Program-made: the position numbers and the translations under genes
Shown: positions 53,672-60,856 of the stretch, one piece after another
Numbering within the stretch: position 1 is the first letter of the stretch
How the letters are laid out: each line of letters begins with the position of its first letter
The notes under the pieces: generated by a model
What the model was told of the DNA's origin: nothing
The model's input: the letters and a program-made list of their open reading frames with translations, nothing else
Databases searched by the model: none
Source of the DNA: Apilactobacillus sp.
GTDB taxonomy: Bacteria; Bacillota; Bacilli; Lactobacillales; Lactobacillaceae
DNA: 64,000 bases
Assembly (NCBI RefSeq): GCF_025290035.1
Contig: NZ_JAMBKT010000001.1
Coordinates: 12,755 to 76,754, forward strand
Reading direction: 5' to 3'

Positions 53672-54157
53672 ATGAAAATATTTAAACGAAGCAGAAAATT
53701 TTATCTGTTTGCTTTTGTAGTGATTGTTTTAATTGGATTGGGAATTAGAAACACGATTGATAATGGTAAGTTCTATCAATTTACCAATAATAATGCTAGC
53801 TTGCTAGTTAAGGCTGATCAAAAAGGAAAAGTTATTTGGAAGCTTAGAAGCAGCGACTCAAACGTTACATATTTATTCTTTAATAAGGATAATCAAGTTT
53901 TAATTGCTGAAGATAAATCAGATTTAAATGGAATATACAAGAATCCTAATAATTACAGTGATGACGTTGGAACATATCAAAATAATGGTGGCGAAATCAC
54001 GTTTAACATCAAGTATGATGAAGAACAAGTCAACATTAAGATATATAACTTGAAGAAGGTTAACAATAACAAATTTAAAGGAGTTATTGAAACTGATTCT
54101 GAAAGTACATCCTTTAAACAAAATGCGACAATCAGCAAGGATGGATATATTAAATAA
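53672..54157 (+). CDS. Membrane-anchored protein of unknown family, paralogue 1 of 3
   Basis: 161 residues. An N-terminal basic segment (FKRSRKF) and one hydrophobic helix (about 11-28) lead into GIRNTIDNG and a polar, probably beta-rich extracytoplasmic domain with IWKLRSSDSNV and YLFFNKDNQ. The same layout recurs in the next two genes: FK-x-[AS]-[HR]-K, a helix, G[IV][KR]N, then W[KT]. There is no lipobox or signal-cleavage site, so it is likely anchored outward by the helix. Function unknown. Confidence 0.65.
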   Translation: MKIFKRSRKFYLFAFVVIVLIGLGIRNTIDNGKFYQFTNNNASLLVKADQKGKVIWKLRSSDSNVTYLFFNKDNQVLIAEDKSDLNGIYKNPNNYSDDVGTYQNNGGEITFNIKYDEEQVNIKIYNLKKVNNNKFKGVIETDSESTSFKQNATISKDGYIK

Positions 54158-54165
54158 ATTATTGA

Positions 54166-54205
54166 TTAAAGACCCCTTTTTATATAAAGGTGGTCTTTTT
54201 ATTTT
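54166..54205 (+). terminator. Intrinsic terminator after paralogue 1
   Basis: AAAGACC/GGTCTTT stem, extended by CC/GG with a bulge, followed by T. Confidence 0.75.
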
Positions 54206-54303
54206 GCATACATCTATACATTAAAACTAATGGATATATATTATTCACCTTTATTATGATATACTTATAGATAGATTATATATAAAAACAGGGGGATTCA
54301 TAT

Positions 54304-54744
54304 ATGTCTAATATTACAAACTTTAAGAAATCACATAAAAATGCTTTTTATGCGATAATTGCAGTTATCGTTATTTTAATTTTGCTCGGAGTAAAAAATG
54401 TTATTACGAGTGGAAATGTTTTTAGCGCATCAGAAGCACCTACATCTTTAATTAAGCAATCTATTAAAGATCACACTTTATGGAAAGTTACATATAAAGA
54501 TGAAGATAACGAAGACGCCACTATCTACTTCTATTTGGATTCAGATGAAGCTCATTATAAAGATGATGAATACCATATTGCAATGGTTTCAAACTCAACT
54601 GATTATAAATTAACAGATGATAGCTTTAGTCTTTCTTCTTTAAAGTTCACTGATTTAGAGACCAACGGTAAAAACATCGACGCTACTTTAGGTAATCAAA
54701 GAGTAACCATTAAAAATACCGGTGATAAAATTTCTGACGATTAG
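54304..54744 (+). CDS. Membrane-anchored protein of unknown family, paralogue 2 of 3
   Basis: 146 residues. FKKSHKNAFYAI, a hydrophobic helix to about residue 31, GVKNVITSG, then APTSLIKQSIKDHTLWKVTYKD and a segment TIYFYLDSD. Layout and spacing match paralogues 1 and 3, being closest to 3 in SHKN and AxxLI/AKII. GGGGG precedes the ATG. It has its own upstream region after the terminator of paralogue 1. Function unknown. Confidence 0.68.
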   Translation: MSNITNFKKSHKNAFYAIIAVIVILILLGVKNVITSGNVFSASEAPTSLIKQSIKDHTLWKVTYKDEDNEDATIYFYLDSDEAHYKDDEYHIAMVSNSTDYKLTDDSFSLSSLKFTDLETNGKNIDATLGNQRVTIKNTGDKISDD

Positions 54745-54755
54745 GAGTGAACATT

Positions 54756-55313
54756 ATGGGATTTATTTCAGCATTTAAAGAAGCACATAAAAACCTTTTT
54801 TATTTAATTACTGTCTTGATTTCAGTTACAGTTGTTGTTGGTGTTAGAAATCAAGTTGTTAACGGTAGTCCTACACAACTGGGACCTACCCCAGCTAAAA
54901 TCATTCAAGAAACTACTGAAAAGAAAACCATTTGGACATTTTCTTACAATGATAATAACTTTTATTTATACTTTCTTAATGATAAAGACGTTTTATATTC
55001 AGATGACTTAAGTAATTTCTCAATGGCTTATAAATATCCAGAATATGATAAGTGGACTAATGGTGAAAAATGTTCATACAGTTTAAGTAATAACCAATTA
55101 ATTATCAATCAACCCAGTGATGGTGATGATACAAATGGTGAATCCTTAACAATAACATTCTCTAACTTACAATTAGATAGTCATAATAACATTCAAGCTC
55201 AGGTATCAGCTAAACCAACAAATGATAGCGATAACAGATCCGTTAATGGTATTAGTGTCGTATTAAATAACACTGGGCGAACACCTGATGATAAATATTT
55301 TGAAAACAATTAA
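54756..55313 (+). CDS. Membrane-anchored protein of unknown family, paralogue 3 of 3
   Basis: 185 residues. FKEAHKNLFYLI, a hydrophobic helix, GVRNQVVNG, then TPAKIIQETTEKKTIWTFSYND and FYLYFLNDKD. The ATG at 54756 is used because AGGAG, which overlaps the stop of paralogue 2, is eight bases upstream; an earlier in-frame GTG overlaps that site. Co-transcribed with paralogue 2. The C-terminal part is longer than in the others and rich in Asn and Asp. Function unknown. Confidence 0.68.
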   Translation: MGFISAFKEAHKNLFYLITVLISVTVVVGVRNQVVNGSPTQLGPTPAKIIQETTEKKTIWTFSYNDNNFYLYFLNDKDVLYSDDLSNFSMAYKYPEYDKWTNGEKCSYSLSNNQLIINQPSDGDDTNGESLTITFSNLQLDSHNNIQAQVSAKPTNDSDNRSVNGISVVLNNTGRTPDDKYFENN

Positions 55314-55314
55314 T

Positions 55315-55349
55315 AAAAAAGACATTTCAAAAATGAAATGTCTTTTTTA
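55315..55349. terminator. Bidirectional terminator between paralogue 3 and carB
   Basis: A-run, GACATTTCA/TGAAATGTC stem and T-run, just past the ends of both converging genes. Confidence 0.93.
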
Positions 55350-57842
55350 ATCTTCAATTTTAAATTTTATTCTAGCCCCTACTTCTTGAGAACTATTCGC
55401 ATGATCAACTTTGACGTTTAATTGTTTAAATGGGAATGTTGCTTGCATTTGCGTGGTTCTATTTGAAACATCAGGCATAGAAGCCATAAGGGCGTCTATA
55501 TCTAATTTCTTAGTATAGAATCTGACAAGGGCACGTACCCAATTAATTCCTGTCGCCCTGCTTAGGAAAATGGTTTCAGTAAGTCTTAGTGGCCTGATTC
55601 CAACGTATTCAGATTTGCCATTTTTAGTTTGATTAAACAAGATTTGAACTAAACCAATCCAATTAGAACTAGCGATATGCTCTTTAGATAGCTTAATATC
55701 TTGCTCCAAAGTACTATCATCTAAGACATACGGAGTTTCATATGCAGTAACATAGTCTAAGTCACTCTTATTATTACTAATAAGCTTTTCAGTAGATATG
55801 AAGTAACTATCTTCTTTAGTAACAAAGAAATTTAATGCATAAGTAACGTCTTTGGGTAAAACAACCCCTGTTTCTTGATCAGGTGGAAGTACTTGAACGT
55901 TTAAATTGGTATATTGCTTTAATTGTTTTAATAAGAAGTGACGATTTCCAGGAATAAATACCCTAACCGGTTTTTCCAGTTCAATTATATTAAGAATAGC
56001 TCCTAATTGAATTGGTTCAATGTATTGTTTATCACTGATTTGAGGGCTTAATGATAAAGCATTCGGGTTATTGTTCATTACAATTGTCTTGTAACCAATT
56101 CTATGAAGTTGAATTAACATCTCAGCTGTATAATAGTCAGCTGCAGTATTTGGACCAAGTTTATTTCCCCCACGTCCAATTACCAAAGCTGTCTTTTCAG
56201 ATTCTTGATGCGATTCGTTTTCAACTTCATAACTACTGTAAAATGATCTAATATTTTGATCAAACTCTCCAGCTGAAGGTTCAATTGTTTTGTAAGTTGG
56301 ATATTCATTTTCAGCATGATATAAAGATCTTACTGATTCAATCGGTTCTTGCCATGTTTCAGCCATCATACCATCACCAAAACCGAAATCATGTGCTACT
56401 TCGATAGTGCTAAGCTTCATTGGTTCTTTAATAATGAGCTCTTCCACATCAAGTAAAGCTCTTAACTTATAGAAATAGAATTGGTCAATCTTTGTTAACT
56501 CTTCTAATTCATCAATTTGATATCCACGTCTAAGGGCTTCAATTAACACTAGTAAACGATCAGACTTTGGATGAATTAATTGACTAATCAATTCGTCATT
56601 ACTGATTTCTTTCATACTTGGTAATACATCTCTAGGAGAAAATTGAGAGCTTCTAAGAGCCTTTAGTAACGCTTCTTCAACAGTTCTTCCCACACCAATT
56701 GTAGAACCGACAGATTTCATCTTTGTACCAAGATGTTGATCAGCTTCTTGAATATTATCAAATGGCCAAACCGGCATTTTAACAACAACGTGATCTAAAG
56801 TTGGTTCCATAATTGGAGTTAAATGATGGTAATTATTATGCAACTTAATTTCATTTAATGAGTTACCCAATAATAAATTAGTACATACATAAACCAACGG
56901 ATACCCTGTAGAACGAGCCGCTAAAGCAGTGTTACTGTTAATAATCGGGTTAATTTTAGTTACGTAGTAATTTGATCCATCATTGGTATCTAAAGCAAAT
57001 TGAATATGACAAGGTCCAATAATGTTTAAGTAATCCATAATCTTGAAGGTCGCAGTTCTAATATTTTGATATTCAATATCATTTAAAGTTTGAACTGGAG
57101 TGATAATCATTGAATCTCCAGAATGGACTCCAACAGCATCAATATTTTCAAGTCCAGCAATTAGTATTTTAGTGTTGGTTTGATCTCTAACCCCTACTGT
57201 TTCGACCTGTTTGTATCCAACAATGCTCTTCTCAATTACGCATACACTGTCGTCTTTAAACTCATCTTCAAGTAAATCGGATAAATCTTCAGCATTATTA
57301 CAAATGATTCTTTCAGTGCTTTCTCTTTGGTTAACTTTCTTGATGTTAACCGGAAAACCAATATCTCTAACCACCGCAAAAGCTTCTGATTCACTGCGAA
57401 TTATTTTAGATGGAACTGCAGGTTCAGAAACGCGGTTAATTGCAGTTTTCATTTTATCTGGACTATTTAAAACTTTTAATGATTCCTTTGAAATACCTAA
57501 TACTTTTACATTTAGGTCATCCAGGATTCCTTGATTAATCAATTCTTGAGCAACATGAACAGCCCTTAGTCCACCTGTAATTGGAATAAGAGCGTCTGGT
57601 TGTTCTTTATTTAAAACGTCAATTACGTTTTTTACATTAATTTCTTTGATAAAAATGTTAGCTGGTTGAACTTCAGAAAGAGTTAATGAAAATGGATTGT
57701 TATCCATTACTAGAACTGATATGCCTAGTTTTTTTAAGGCTACCATCATTTGAAATGCTGATGCATCTAGTTCAGTTTCACTACCAATTTTAGAAGGTCC
57801 TCCACCTAGAATTAATACCTTTTTTATTTCATTATCGATCAT
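55347..57842 (-). CDS. carB: Degenerate carbamoyl-phosphate synthase large chain (CarB-like, predicted inactive)
   Basis: 831 residues; active CarB has about 1050-1070. The first half follows CarB throughout (GGGPSKIGSETELD, HSGDSMIITPVQTLND, FALDTNDGS). However, the Gly-rich ATP loop is gone: where CarB has RPSFTxGGxGGG, residues 167-179 read IKKVNQRESTERI. The metal ligand Glu of ExNPR is Lys296 (KINPI) and the Arg is Ile300. The oligomerisation region is present (HPKSDRLLVLIEALRRG). The second half keeps its first subdomain (550-650), but the ATP-grasp domain has shrunk and its ExNPR reads GIRPL (748-752). The MGS allosteric domain is missing. The frame is uninterrupted, and the gene starts four bases after carA. 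It should not make carbamoyl phosphate. Confidence 0.85.
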   Translation of the reverse strand: MIDNEIKKVLILGGGPSKIGSETELDASAFQMMVALKKLGISVLVMDNNPFSLTLSEVQPANIFIKEINVKNVIDVLNKEQPDALIPITGGLRAVHVAQELINQGILDDLNVKVLGISKESLKVLNSPDKMKTAINRVSEPAVPSKIIRSESEAFAVVRDIGFPVNIKKVNQRESTERIICNNAEDLSDLLEDEFKDDSVCVIEKSIVGYKQVETVGVRDQTNTKILIAGLENIDAVGVHSGDSMIITPVQTLNDIEYQNIRTATFKIMDYLNIIGPCHIQFALDTNDGSNYYVTKINPIINSNTALAARSTGYPLVYVCTNLLLGNSLNEIKLHNNYHHLTPIMEPTLDHVVVKMPVWPFDNIQEADQHLGTKMKSVGSTIGVGRTVEEALLKALRSSQFSPRDVLPSMKEISNDELISQLIHPKSDRLLVLIEALRRGYQIDELEELTKIDQFYFYKLRALLDVEELIIKEPMKLSTIEVAHDFGFGDGMMAETWQEPIESVRSLYHAENEYPTYKTIEPSAGEFDQNIRSFYSSYEVENESHQESEKTALVIGRGGNKLGPNTAADYYTAEMLIQLHRIGYKTIVMNNNPNALSLSPQISDKQYIEPIQLGAILNIIELEKPVRVFIPGNRHFLLKQLKQYTNLNVQVLPPDQETGVVLPKDVTYALNFFVTKEDSYFISTEKLISNNKSDLDYVTAYETPYVLDDSTLEQDIKLSKEHIASSNWIGLVQILFNQTKNGKSEYVGIRPLRLTETIFLSRATGINWVRALVRFYTKKLDIDALMASMPDVSNRTTQMQATFPFKQLNVKVDHANSSQEVGARIKFKIED

Positions 57843-57845
57843 GTG

Positions 57846-58919
57846 TTATCTCCTTTGTGAGCTAACGTTTTCTAGAAATTCTTCAAATGTATCCGCACTA
57901 TCTTGTGGTCCGGGACCTCCATCTGGAGAAAATTGTACTGAAAAAGCTGGATAATCACGATGTCTAATTCCTTGAACGGTTCCATTCACTAGGTCAACGT
58001 ATGTGATTAATAGTTGATCATGAATGATGGATTTAGGGTCAACAGCGTATCCCTCACTTTGTGAAGCATAAATAATTTGATTAGTAATAATTTGTCGAAT
58101 TGGATGATTACTACCATGGTGTTCACCATCTAGTTTATAGACATTAGCACCATTAGCTAGTGCGAACAATTCATGACCTAATCCCATTGAGAACATTGGA
58201 ATCTCTTTTTGGACATCCTTAATCATGTCTAAAACAGAACTAGGGAGGTCCAAAGGAGAACCTGGACCAGTAGATAAAACTACGCCATCCGGATCTAGGT
58301 CAAAAATGGCCTTACTAGATGTATCCCACGGCATCACAATCACATTACAGTCAAGGTCTGCTAACTTTCTTAAAATACCGTATTTTAGCCCAAAATCAAT
58401 CAAAACAATATTGTTTCCATCACCAGTATTTGGAAATGGTGATGTTGTAGAAACTTGTTTTACTTGTTGATTGGTTAAAACAGTCGCATGTAATTGATCA
58501 AACGCGTGCTCATCATCAATATCTACAATACTAGCCTTCATTGTTGGCTTTTTATTTAATCGACGGGTTAATTCACGGGTGTCAATGCCAGCAATTCCTG
58601 GGATATTATGTTGTTTCAAGAAAAGGTCTAGGTTAAGATTTCCTAATCTATTCGTAGAAACATTTGAATATTCCTTTACAACGATCCCTTTAGTATTAGT
58701 CACAATTGCTTCAAAGCTTTTGTGATTAATCCCAGTGTTACCAATTGATGGTTGGGTGAAAACGATGATTTGATTATGGTAAATTTGATTTGTTATAACT
58801 TCTTGATAGCCTAACATATTAGAATTTACAATAATTTCACCAGTTGTGGTAGCTTCTGCACCAAAGCCTTTTCCCTTATATGATGTTCCATCTTCTAATA
58901 TTAAATATCTAGTGGTCAT
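57846..58919 (-). CDS. carA: Degenerate carbamoyl-phosphate synthase small chain (CarA-like, predicted no glutaminase)
   Basis: 357 residues, normal CarA length and order. The N-terminal domain (GYQEVITN, QPSIGNTGIN, GIAGIDTRELTRRL) is well kept, with the class I amidotransferase fold after about 170. Active-site residues have changed: GICLGHQ reads SMGLGHE, so the nucleophile Cys is Gly246; QNHGYAV reads QSEGYAV; and the HPE of the triad reads SPD (Ser331, Asp333). Ammonia release from glutamine is therefore not expected. The intact reading frame and place between pyrR and carB suggest a kept, altered role, perhaps as partner of the CarB-like protein. Recent decay is the alternative. Confidence 0.87.
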   Translation of the reverse strand: MTTRYLILEDGTSYKGKGFGAEATTTGEIIVNSNMLGYQEVITNQIYHNQIIVFTQPSIGNTGINHKSFEAIVTNTKGIVVKEYSNVSTNRLGNLNLDLFLKQHNIPGIAGIDTRELTRRLNKKPTMKASIVDIDDEHAFDQLHATVLTNQQVKQVSTTSPFPNTGDGNNIVLIDFGLKYGILRKLADLDCNVIVMPWDTSSKAIFDLDPDGVVLSTGPGSPLDLPSSVLDMIKDVQKEIPMFSMGLGHELFALANGANVYKLDGEHHGSNHPIRQIITNQIIYASQSEGYAVDPKSIIHDQLLITYVDLVNGTVQGIRHRDYPAFSVQFSPDGGPGPQDSADTFEEFLENVSSQRR

Positions 58920-58951: not shown

Positions 58952-59479
58952 TTACTTTTCATCAATTTCTACTGAATCTTGATCATCAATTTCGTCTACT
59001 TGAACTTGAATGATTTCTTGCTTAGAAGTTGGAATGTTCTTACCAACAAAATCAGCTCTAATTGGTAATTCACGATGACCTCTGTCAACTAAAACAGCTA
59101 AACGGATGTTATTAGGTCTTCCTAGTTCGGCAATTGCAGATAGAGCAGCATTAATAGTTCTTCCAGTAAATAATACGTCATCTACTAAAATAATATTTTT
59201 ATCTTTTAATGAAACTTCATTATCAGATAGAACTTCTGGTTCGTTGTTAGTGTGTTGGATATCATCACGATACTTAGTTACGTCAATTCCAACTACTGGC
59301 ACTTCTTTATTTTCTAACTTTTGTAATCGGTTAGCGATACGTTTAGCAAGATAAATACCACGTGTTTTAATACCAACTAATACTAAGTTGTTTACCCCTT
59401 TATTCTTTTCAATAATTTCATAAGTAATTCTGGTTAATGCTCTTTGCATTGCCATTTTATCTACGACGACTTTACTCAA
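58952..59479 (-). CDS. pyrR: PyrR, pyrimidine operon regulator / uracil phosphoribosyltransferase
   Basis: 175 residues. The PRPP loop is [15 protein letters not shown], with [11 protein letters not shown] and the RNA-binding-side motif [18 protein letters not shown]. PyrR binds UMP and the leader RNA of pyr genes to promote termination, and is a weak uracil phosphoribosyltransferase. No PyrR-binding attenuator is visible in the short gaps beside it, so it probably acts elsewhere. Order lspA-rluD-pyrR matches Bacillus. Confidence 0.95.
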
Positions 59480-59490
59480 GATGGTTCCTC

Positions 59491-60408
59491 CTATTGAATC
59501 TTATATTTATTTCTTAATTTAGTAATTGTTTGTTCAAAAATTTCAGGTAATGGTGTTTCAAAAACAAGTTGCTCATTAGTTACTGGATGAACGAATCCTA
59601 GCTTTTTAGCATGTAAGAATTGACCATTTCCTTGGATAGTATTTTTGGGACCATATAATGGATCTCCTACTAGTGGATGACCAATATATTTCATATGCAC
59701 TCTGATTTGATGAGTTCTACCAGTTTCTAGAATACAAGATACTAATGTGTACTCTCCACCGAATCTTTCTAAGACTTTAAAGTGAGTAACTGCATTCTTA
59801 CCGTCCTCAACAATCCCTTGTTTTTTACGATCTTTTTTAGATCTACCAATTGGTGCATTGATTACACCACTATTTTCTTTTATGTTTCCATGGACTAATG
59901 CAATGTATTCACGAATGTTTGATTTATCTTTTAGTTGTTGTGACAAACTCTCATGAGCATGATTGTTCTTTGCAATCATCAATAAACCAGAAGTATCCTT
60001 ATCAATTCGATGGACAATTCCTGGTCTATATGTACCATTGATTGTTGATAATGGGCTATGAAATAATAGCCCATTAACTAAAGTATGATTAGGATGACCG
60101 GCTGAGGGATGAACTACCATACCCTGTGGCTTGTTAACTACTAAGACATCGTCATCTTCGTAAACAATATCTAACGGAATATCTTCTGGCTCAACATTCA
60201 TAGTTTCTGGCTCGGGGATTTCAACCGTAATTTCGTCATCAATTTTGACATCATATTTAGGCTTCTTCTTTTCACCATTCACGAGTACAAGGCCATCTTC
60301 AATTAATGATTTCGCTCTTGCACGGCTTAAATCCTCAATGTTATCAGTAATGGACTTATCAAGTCTAACATTACCCTCTGTTACTGTATAAATTACTGTA
60401 TTACTAAT
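59491..60408 (-). CDS. rluD: 23S rRNA pseudouridine synthase RluD family, apparent ATT start
   Basis: About 305 residues from ATT at 60408. The S4 RNA-binding domain is encoded upstream of the first ordinary start: [31 protein letters not shown]. The first canonical start in frame is GTG at 60282, which lies inside the S4 domain. GGTGAT (60418-60413) lies just before the ATT, and the ATT overlaps the lspA stop by five bases. The catalytic domain has [15 protein letters not shown] (catalytic Asp) and [17 protein letters not shown]. It would modify helix 69 uridines of 23S rRNA or related sites. Confidence 0.85.
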
Positions 60409-60856
60409 CTAAATCACCATCTCTTAATATTGCAATGAATAGGATAACAATTCCAAAAGTGATACAAATGTCTGCAAAGTTAAAGATTGGGAAATTAATG
60501 AAATCAACTTGGAACATGTCTACTACATATCCGTCAAATAAGCGATTAATAAAATTACCAATAATTCCTGACAGTAAAATTGTTAAACTAACTACATATA
60601 ATTTTCTATTCTTTAATTTTATCATAAAGTAGATAACCGCAACGACAGCAACAAATGTAATGATTGAGAACAACCATTGTTGTCCCTGTAAAATACTCCA
60701 AGCAGCACCACTGTTATGGATGTTTGCAATGGATAATACTCCAGGGATGAACGGTTTTGCTGTATTTTCTATAATATTAGCAGAAATCCAAATTTTTATA
60801 ATTTGATCAATTCCTACTAAAGCGATAACACTTAAGATAATATATAAAATCGGCAT
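60404..60856 (-). CDS. lspA: Lipoprotein signal peptidase
   Basis: Cleaves the signal peptide from acylated prolipoproteins in the membrane. 150 residues, four helices. Catalytic Asps are in NRLFDGYVVDM and FNFADICIT; the helix-1 DQIIKIW and NSGAAWSIL motifs are present. TAGGAG precedes the ATG. Order lspA-rluD-pyrR is conserved. Confidence 0.95.
   Translation of the reverse strand: MPILYIILSVIALVGIDQIIKIWISANIIENTAKPFIPGVLSIANIHNSGAAWSILQGQQWLFSIITFVAVVAVIYFMIKLKNRKLYVVSLTILLSGIIGNFINRLFDGYVVDMFQVDFINFPIFNFADICITFGIVILFIAILRDGDLD

Follow-up and report, generated by a model that had tools for sequence, protein, structure and literature searches.

What is a carbamoyl-phosphate synthase (CPS) kept for once the residues of catalysis have gone? 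The question is raised by a gene in a 64,000-nucleotide stretch of an Apilactobacillus sp. genome (NCBI RefSeq assembly GCF_025290035.1, contig NZ_JAMBKT010000001.1, positions 12,755 to 76,754; hereafter, the window), which encodes a shortened relative of the CPS large subunit, CarB, and follows a relative of the gene for the small subunit, CarA. Here, we will call the pair pseudo-carA and pseudo-carB, to be distinguished from the real carA and carB. The original prediction, made from the letters of the window, described the large subunit as what looked like a pseudo-synthetase scaffold kept by selection. Catalytic residues have been lost from both subunits, both are under purifying selection, and the pair is linked to rluD and pyrR, while structure prediction indicates that both folds are kept. 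Going beyond that prediction, the small subunit appears dead too, the dead forms look like one ancient clade, and the replacement residues are conserved, so that the site looks re-purposed more than broken. The explanation that we favor, at about even probability, is that the two proteins no longer catalyze but would bind a ligand and act, as a regulatory partner, on the PyrR whose gene lies just upstream.

Catalytic residues lost from both subunits, and selection

The frame of pseudo-carB runs from ATG through the stop without a break, as first read, and its 831-residue product shares 87% identity with proteins that bear the name Apilactobacillus kunkeei. Pfam matches its pre-ATP-grasp, first ATP-grasp, and oligomerization domains, and the predicted structure, a check that had been proposed with the original prediction, has the CPS fold with pre-ATP-grasp, ATP-grasp, and oligomerization domains; the pre-ATP-grasp and oligomerization regions had already been called recognizable in the original prediction. 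The protein falls below the NCBIfam equivalog cut-offs (TIGR01369, 522.7 bits vs. 1027; PRK05294, 500.1 vs. 599). The model has a predicted local distance difference test score (pLDDT) below 50 at residues 172–175 and stops at the equivalent of Escherichia coli residue 925; no C-terminal allosteric (MGS-like) domain is present and no MGS family is among the family-search matches, which agrees with the claim that this domain is missing.

Residues are numbered here after E. coli K-12 CarB (L129), and the catalytic roles of the numbered large-subunit positions, in both ATP sites, are those of the E. coli structural literature. In the first site of the window protein, P stands for R129, Q for E215, K for E299, and I for R303, and the Gly-rich loop is absent, its region holding E, S, and R instead. 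In the second, R675 and R715 fall in gaps, and G, R, and L stand for E841, N843, and R845. The protein thus has neither the first-site nor the second-site residues required of a functional CarB, nor the allosteric domain, and the two ATP-grasp sites called dead at the outset (Gly-rich loop gone, Lys for Glu299, second site gutted) are indeed so.

These losses are not peculiar to the window. Our sample comprised 201 Lactobacillaceae genomes, the window's included, in which the lengths of CarB-family frames are bimodal (about 820–900 vs. about 1060 amino acids); 105 of the genomes carry a form of about 830 amino acids (the short form), and the 104 short proteins from outside the window were aligned, one of them (L098) being a contig-end fragment. 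The search for other 800–850 residue CarB homologues that accompanied the original prediction as a suggestion therefore has its answer, that is, the same losses recur in other CarB relatives of 800–900 residues. Residue 299 is Lys or Arg in 105/105 short proteins and Glu in 15/15 long CarB; G179 has become Arg (Arg178 in the window) in 104/105. None of the 105 retains E841, N843, or R845, and none has R129, R169, E215, Q285, E299, N301, and R303 together, while R675 and R715 lie in gaps in all 104 aligned proteins. All 15 long Lactobacillaceae CarB retain R129, R169, E215, H243, Q285, E299, N301, R303, R675, R715, E841, N843, and R845.

The small subunit tells the same story. Pseudo-CarA scores above its family cut-off (NF009475, 405 bits vs. 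221), and its predicted fold has a TM-score of 0.94 to E. coli CarA (1cs0_B). Glutamine hydrolysis in E. coli needs Cys-269 and His-353 (PMC6245113). Gly replaces Cys269 in all 102 distinct pseudo-CarA proteins that accompany the short form, and His353 is retained in none of the 102; both residues are intact in 15/15 CarA partners of long CarB. Other new residues are held as well, with Q273 replaced by Glu in 98/102 and S47 by Ile in 91/102.

Purifying selection acts on both genes, as measured by the ratio of nonsynonymous to synonymous substitutions per site (dN/dS; Nei–Gojobori). For pseudo-CarB, the ratio is 0.012–0.048 in 12 of 14 within-genus pairs, the other two being saturated at synonymous sites, and 0.051–0.166 in four of the five pairs that match the window against another Apilactobacillus, the fifth being saturated; dS exceeds 1 in four of the 12 pairs and in all window comparisons, and these ratios are rough. 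For pseudo-CarA it is at most 0.09 wherever computable. Among forms of other lengths, described below by genus (g with a number), CarB ratios are 0.02–0.05 in g22, g15, and g37 (one g15 pair saturated), 0.097 in g9, and 0.080 in g4. Pseudo-CarA has also accumulated fewer replacements per site than real CarA in four genome pairs that have both kinds (0.045 vs. 0.074, 0.114 vs. 0.171, 0.115 vs. 0.174, and 0.055 vs. 0.143). With a predicted CPS fold, shared losses, and ratios of 0.012–0.17 for pseudo-CarB and up to 0.09 for pseudo-CarA, a pseudo-synthetase kept by selection is supported, a scaffolding role being one candidate function, and to annotate this gene as "carbamoyl phosphate synthase" is to mislead.

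Spread, origin, and stages of decay

Beyond the 105 genomes, the short form occurs in two more (L301 and L303), and looser relatives stand behind rluD as proteins of 791–806 amino acids (g4, g9, and g35), about 660 (g10), 1055–1084 (g11, g15, g18, g22, g27, and g37), and 643 (one g23 genome). Together, at least 139 of 201 genomes (105 + 2 + 32) in 32 of 40 genera carry some form, a lower bound, the rluD region having been inspected in only some genomes lacking the short form. No Cys-less carA adjoined rluD at the loci inspected in g12, g13, g25, g30, g31, and g33. An order-wide search (246 genomes) gave no open frame below 1000 amino acids from other families among the matches listed; the only match in several g43 genomes, at about 1e-43 to 1e-59, lies outside those matches.

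A tree was built from 79 CarA proteins, chosen among those retrieved. All 44 that lack Cys269 group in a single clade (SH-aLRT 88; one label change), which gives moderate support to a single origin of the Cys-to-Gly small subunit. All 44 have Gly, and His353 is found in none. The placement of the long-branch rows (L317 and the g10 group) is unsure, and L189, L250, and L258, which in an earlier tree branched with Cys-bearing CarA despite a dead-form motif, were left out of the 79. We considered the linker motif of pseudo-CarA (H138, A139, D141, and Q142) as a mark of the dead form and dropped it, as it is also found in the Cys-bearing CarA P0351 of Loigolactobacillus iwatensis. That protein, with Cys and His intact and the HAFDQL linker motif common to the dead CarA, perhaps stands near their ancestor.

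One can also find what look like earlier stages. An operon with an intact CPS, in the order rluD-pyrR-(uraA)-pyrB-pyrC-carA-carB, is present in three genomes (G116, G025, and G140; uraA and pyrC assigned by eye, and the G140 CarB frame cut by the fetched stretch). In six others (G010, G021, G022, G058, G083, and G089), a uraA-like gene separates pyrR from a Cys-less carA, and the locus lacks pyrB and pyrC. No aligned CarB of any pseudo-locus form retains E841, which leads us to reject an ammonia-dependent CPS. The g11 CarB still retains R675, R715, and N843. The first site is complete (R129, R169, Gly loop, E215, H243, Q285, E299, N301, and R303) only in g22, in 3/3 genomes (G021, G058, and G089), and E299 is Lys in all seven aligned g15 proteins. 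Judging from the residues that survive in present lineages, the glutaminase and the phosphorylation of carbamate appear to have been lost first and the bicarbonate/ATP half-site last. The g22 loci (L342, L352, and L353), with an intact first site, a dead second site, and a Cys-less CarA, are candidates for a bicarbonate-dependent ATPase without carbamoyl-phosphate synthesis. The 643-residue pseudo-CarB of G022 (L343:3575-5503) ends ahead of the second ATP-grasp domain with R129, R169, E299, and N301 intact. The g10 loci L346 and L347 preserve the order rluD-pyrR-pseudo-carA-pseudo-carB despite their divergence (PyrR 38–40% identical to that of the window, pseudo-CarA 29%, pseudo-CarB of about 660 residues).

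The dead pair does not depend on a real CPS in the same cell. Taking real CarB as absent when the best E-value against the C-terminal half of E. coli CarB is above 1e-45, 24 of the 105 genomes with the short form have none; G165 (a fragmented draft, 1.7e-47) was excluded from this count. We leave the window genome out as well (23, not 24), because its contig breaks at pyrB and the draft is 87% complete. Neither PyrB nor real CarB was found in this draft; its contig C14 (G000:C14:1-613, L363) opens with the 5' end of pyrB, and a PyrR-binding element occupies 150-267. The pyr operon of the window genome probably exists, cut off by the assembly break, and the idea that this genome lacks de novo synthesis was dropped, since C14 begins at pyrB in an incomplete draft.

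The 23 remaining genomes are 91–99% complete, and three (G060, G013, and G034) are single contigs. PyrB (E <1e-80) is present in five (G028, G094, G104, G177, and G197), where the arginine deiminase route may supply carbamoyl phosphate, an idea only; the other 18 have no match of PyrB grade, their weaker matches being taken as ornithine carbamoyltransferase. A single CarA-family gene is found in 22 of the 23, and in G020 there is a second match in a 249-amino-acid frame. Selection persists in such genomes, with dN/dS of 0.013 for L024–L025 (dS 2.99) and 0.012 for L030–L031 (dS 0.91), two g16 pairs drawn from four genomes without real CarB. Retention of the dead complex is not tied to catalysis or to the pathway.

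Linkage with PyrR, and what the complex may do

The features of the window locus are collected in Table 1. The genes lspA, rluD, pyrR, pseudo-carA, and pseudo-carB form a run on one strand with gaps of 121, 11, 32, and 3 bp at the listed starts; the names rluD and lspA are presumptive and follow the gene order. The true start of the rluD-like gene is probably further upstream than listed, relatives being about 300 amino acids long. The PyrR of the window passes its family score and has an intact PRPP loop (DDVLFTGRT).

Table 1. Coordinates of the features discussed, in positions of the window
Feature	Position	Strand	Basis or remark
pseudo-carB, 831-aa pseudo large subunit of CPS	55347..57842	-	family scores, predicted fold
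pseudo-carB residues 748-752 GIRPL, replacing ExNPR of second ATP-grasp domain	55587..55601	-	
pseudo-carB Lys296, replacing metal-binding Glu299	56955..56957	-	
pseudo-carB residues 167-179, replacing Gly-rich loop of first ATP-grasp domain	57306..57344	-	
pseudo-carA, small (pseudo glutaminase) subunit of 357 aa, 3 bp ahead of pseudo-carB	57846..58919	-	family score, predicted fold
pseudo-carA Ser331, replacing catalytic His353	57927..57929	-	alignment
pseudo-carA Gly246, replacing catalytic Cys269	58182..58184	-	alignment
pyrR, attenuation regulator/uracil phosphoribosyltransferase, 32 bp before pseudo-carA	58952..59479	-	NF003548, 256.5 bits vs. cut-off 218
rluD-like pseudouridine synthase, 11 bp before pyrR	59491..60282	-	start from open reading frame tool; conserved neighbor
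lspA-like (signal peptidase II), upstream of rluD	60404..60856	-	conserved neighbor

Across the family, pyrR lies at most 250 bp upstream of pseudo-carA in 91 of 103 loci of the short form. Among 30 genomes that carry the short form, 27 gave matches to the RNA element bound by PyrR (RF00515), 14 of them over the Rfam cut-off, and by eye the genes that follow these elements in the 30 loci are uraA, pyrB, pyrR-pyrB, pyrE, a nucleoside deoxyribosyltransferase, or a permease. The window genome has such elements before genes that look, again by eye, like uraA and pyrF-pyrE, and a third at the contig break before pyrB. In three of six loci of the longer forms, an element also precedes the run of pyrR and pseudo-carA itself (G010, over the cut-off; G022 and G110, below it).

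A mechanism can be proposed on this basis. Pseudo-CarA and pseudo-CarB would still pair and would make no carbamoyl phosphate; the pocket with Arg178 and Lys296 may, with no metal involved, bind an anion, be it a nucleotide, bicarbonate/phosphate, or PRPP; and the occupied complex would change how PyrR acts on the attenuators before genes of uptake and synthesis, for example, uraA and pyrF-pyrE. As for its history, a pyrR-uraA-pyrB-pyrC-carA-carB operon behind rluD would have lost pyrB and pyrC, after which the CPS would have lost its glutaminase and carbamate-kinase functions first and its bicarbonate/ATP half-site last.

A number of observations weigh against this explanation and should be kept in mind. 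Pseudo-CarB has as many replacements as real CarB, or about twice as many, in the same four genome pairs that were used for CarA, and it is looser in g10 (dN/dS 0.239). Stability alone could be the reason for Lys or Arg at position 299 and for Arg at position 179. In 12 of the 103 loci (all 12 from g3 and g6), the neighbor of the pair is rluD and pyrR is not beside it, and pyrR is also missing from the locus in the g37, g18, and g27 forms. Co-occurrence says little, PyrR being present in 105/105 genomes with the short form and in 88/96 others, and the adjacency may be a leftover of the ancestral operon of the same order seen in G116, G025, and G140. Finally, no PyrR-binding element precedes the run of pyrR and pseudo-carA in the other three of the six longer-form loci, and the search gave none for the window locus, nor for five further loci with short forms (L034, L044, L045, L047, and L295). 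A PyrR-site match at 54107-54203 of the window (30.8 bits, E 0.44) was taken as chance.

Several of these points favor the strongest of the rival explanations, in which the dead complex acts elsewhere, for instance by holding pyrimidine or arginine enzymes on a scaffold or by buffering a metabolite, and its position beside pyrR is only the remnant of an old pyr operon. Operons of the same order do exist, 12 loci lack the adjacency, and PyrR is near-universal in the family; nevertheless, the linkage holds in the other 91 loci, in many genera, despite the departure of pyrB and pyrC, and the uraA-like gene has stayed between pyrR and pseudo-carA in the six genomes named above. We consider this explanation possible but rather unlikely.

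That the pair still catalyzes a partial or new reaction, such as bicarbonate-dependent cleavage of ATP in the first half, is distinctly unlikely. The tabulated first-site residues are all intact in the three g22 genomes, and H243 and E215 are each retained in 96 of 104 proteins of the short form; against this, the window protein has the four first-site replacements and the missing loop described above, and the full set from R129 to R303 is found in none of the 105 short proteins.

Partnering or dampening of the real CPS through mixed oligomers is less probable still, and we think it very unlikely. It could draw on the many invariant columns in the oligomerization region of the pseudo-CarB alignment and on the 81 of 105 genomes in which a real CarB is also present. 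The 23 genomes without one, 22 of them with one CarA-family gene and G020 with its second, 249-amino-acid match, speak against it, and an obligate partnership in particular is weakened by them. A decaying pseudogene, which the loss of domains and catalytic residues and the wide divergence between genera might bring to mind, can be put aside almost entirely, given open frames, conserved replacement residues, and dN/dS far below 1 in all computable pairs.

Known systems and the PyrR2 of Lactiplantibacillus plantarum

In comparing pseudo-CarAB with known systems, the closest is the CarA-CarB synthase of the E. coli and Bacillus type, with which it shares the carA-carB order, both predicted folds, and sequence homology; it differs in having lost the Cys and His of catalysis, residues at each of the ATP sites, and the whole allosteric domain. 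Human CPS1, which is ammonia-dependent, likewise has a glutaminase-like part without the catalytic Cys, which is replaced by Ser294 (PMC4655335); however, CPS1 has two catalytic phosphorylation domains, whereas both metal-binding Glu are lost in pseudo-CarB, and in pseudo-CarA the Cys has become Gly. Yeast Ura2 contains an inactive dihydroorotase-like domain (PMC6245113), another dead enzyme fold retained in the context of the pyrimidine pathway, although here an entire two-subunit complex, separately encoded, is dead.

The genus of L. plantarum (g38, Lactiplantibacillus) offers a link to physiology. In the original study of PyrR2, deletion of pyrR2 reportedly made growth require high CO2, or arginine plus pyrimidine. 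Two PyrR are present in 7/7 g38 genomes. In each of the three in which their positions were examined (G149, G071, and G125), one maps to the region of the pyr operon and the other sits beside pseudo-carAB; a CarA named L. plantarum (P0262) has Gly for Cys. In L. plantarum itself, pyrR1 is lp_2704 in the pyr cluster lp_2697-2704 and pyrR2 is lp_1782, away from the cluster (PMC7911632, PMC3014895). A second PyrR outside the pyr operon is seen in g38, with positions read in the three genomes named; as it stands, this feature has no counterpart in the window genome, which has one PyrR, at the pseudo-carAB locus. Judging from the genus, the PyrR2 of L. plantarum is likely the PyrR of this locus, and a dead CPS, once a bicarbonate enzyme, is likely connected with the carbon signal of that species.

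A more daring version, unlikely as it stands, would make the dead synthase a sensor of inorganic carbon: the former bicarbonate/ATP half-site would read HCO3-, with a nucleotide, and signal to the adjacent PyrR, which in L. plantarum is PyrR2, so that uptake and synthesis of pyrimidines would follow the supply of CO2. If this were true, an ancestor inside one bacterial family would have converted an entire enzyme complex into a receptor of signals, and lineages alive today would represent several steps on the way. The open-literature matches listed, judged by title and the beginning of the abstract, included no report of a dead CPS paralogue from lactobacilli and none that ties PyrR2 to a dead CPS.

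Whichever role the pair has, its forms offer a natural series from a working enzyme to an apparent regulator, and it is a concrete candidate for the protein partner of PyrR2 and for the CO2-dependent growth of L. plantarum. Since the source names of its relatives are mostly "carbamoyl phosphate synthase," metabolic models may assign to lactobacilli an activity that is not to be expected from this locus. Next to the pair, tail-to-tail with pseudo-carB, the plus strand of the window encodes three tandem small proteins (53672-55313; 161, 146, and 188 amino acids) that look alike by eye, each with an N-terminal hydrophobic anchor.

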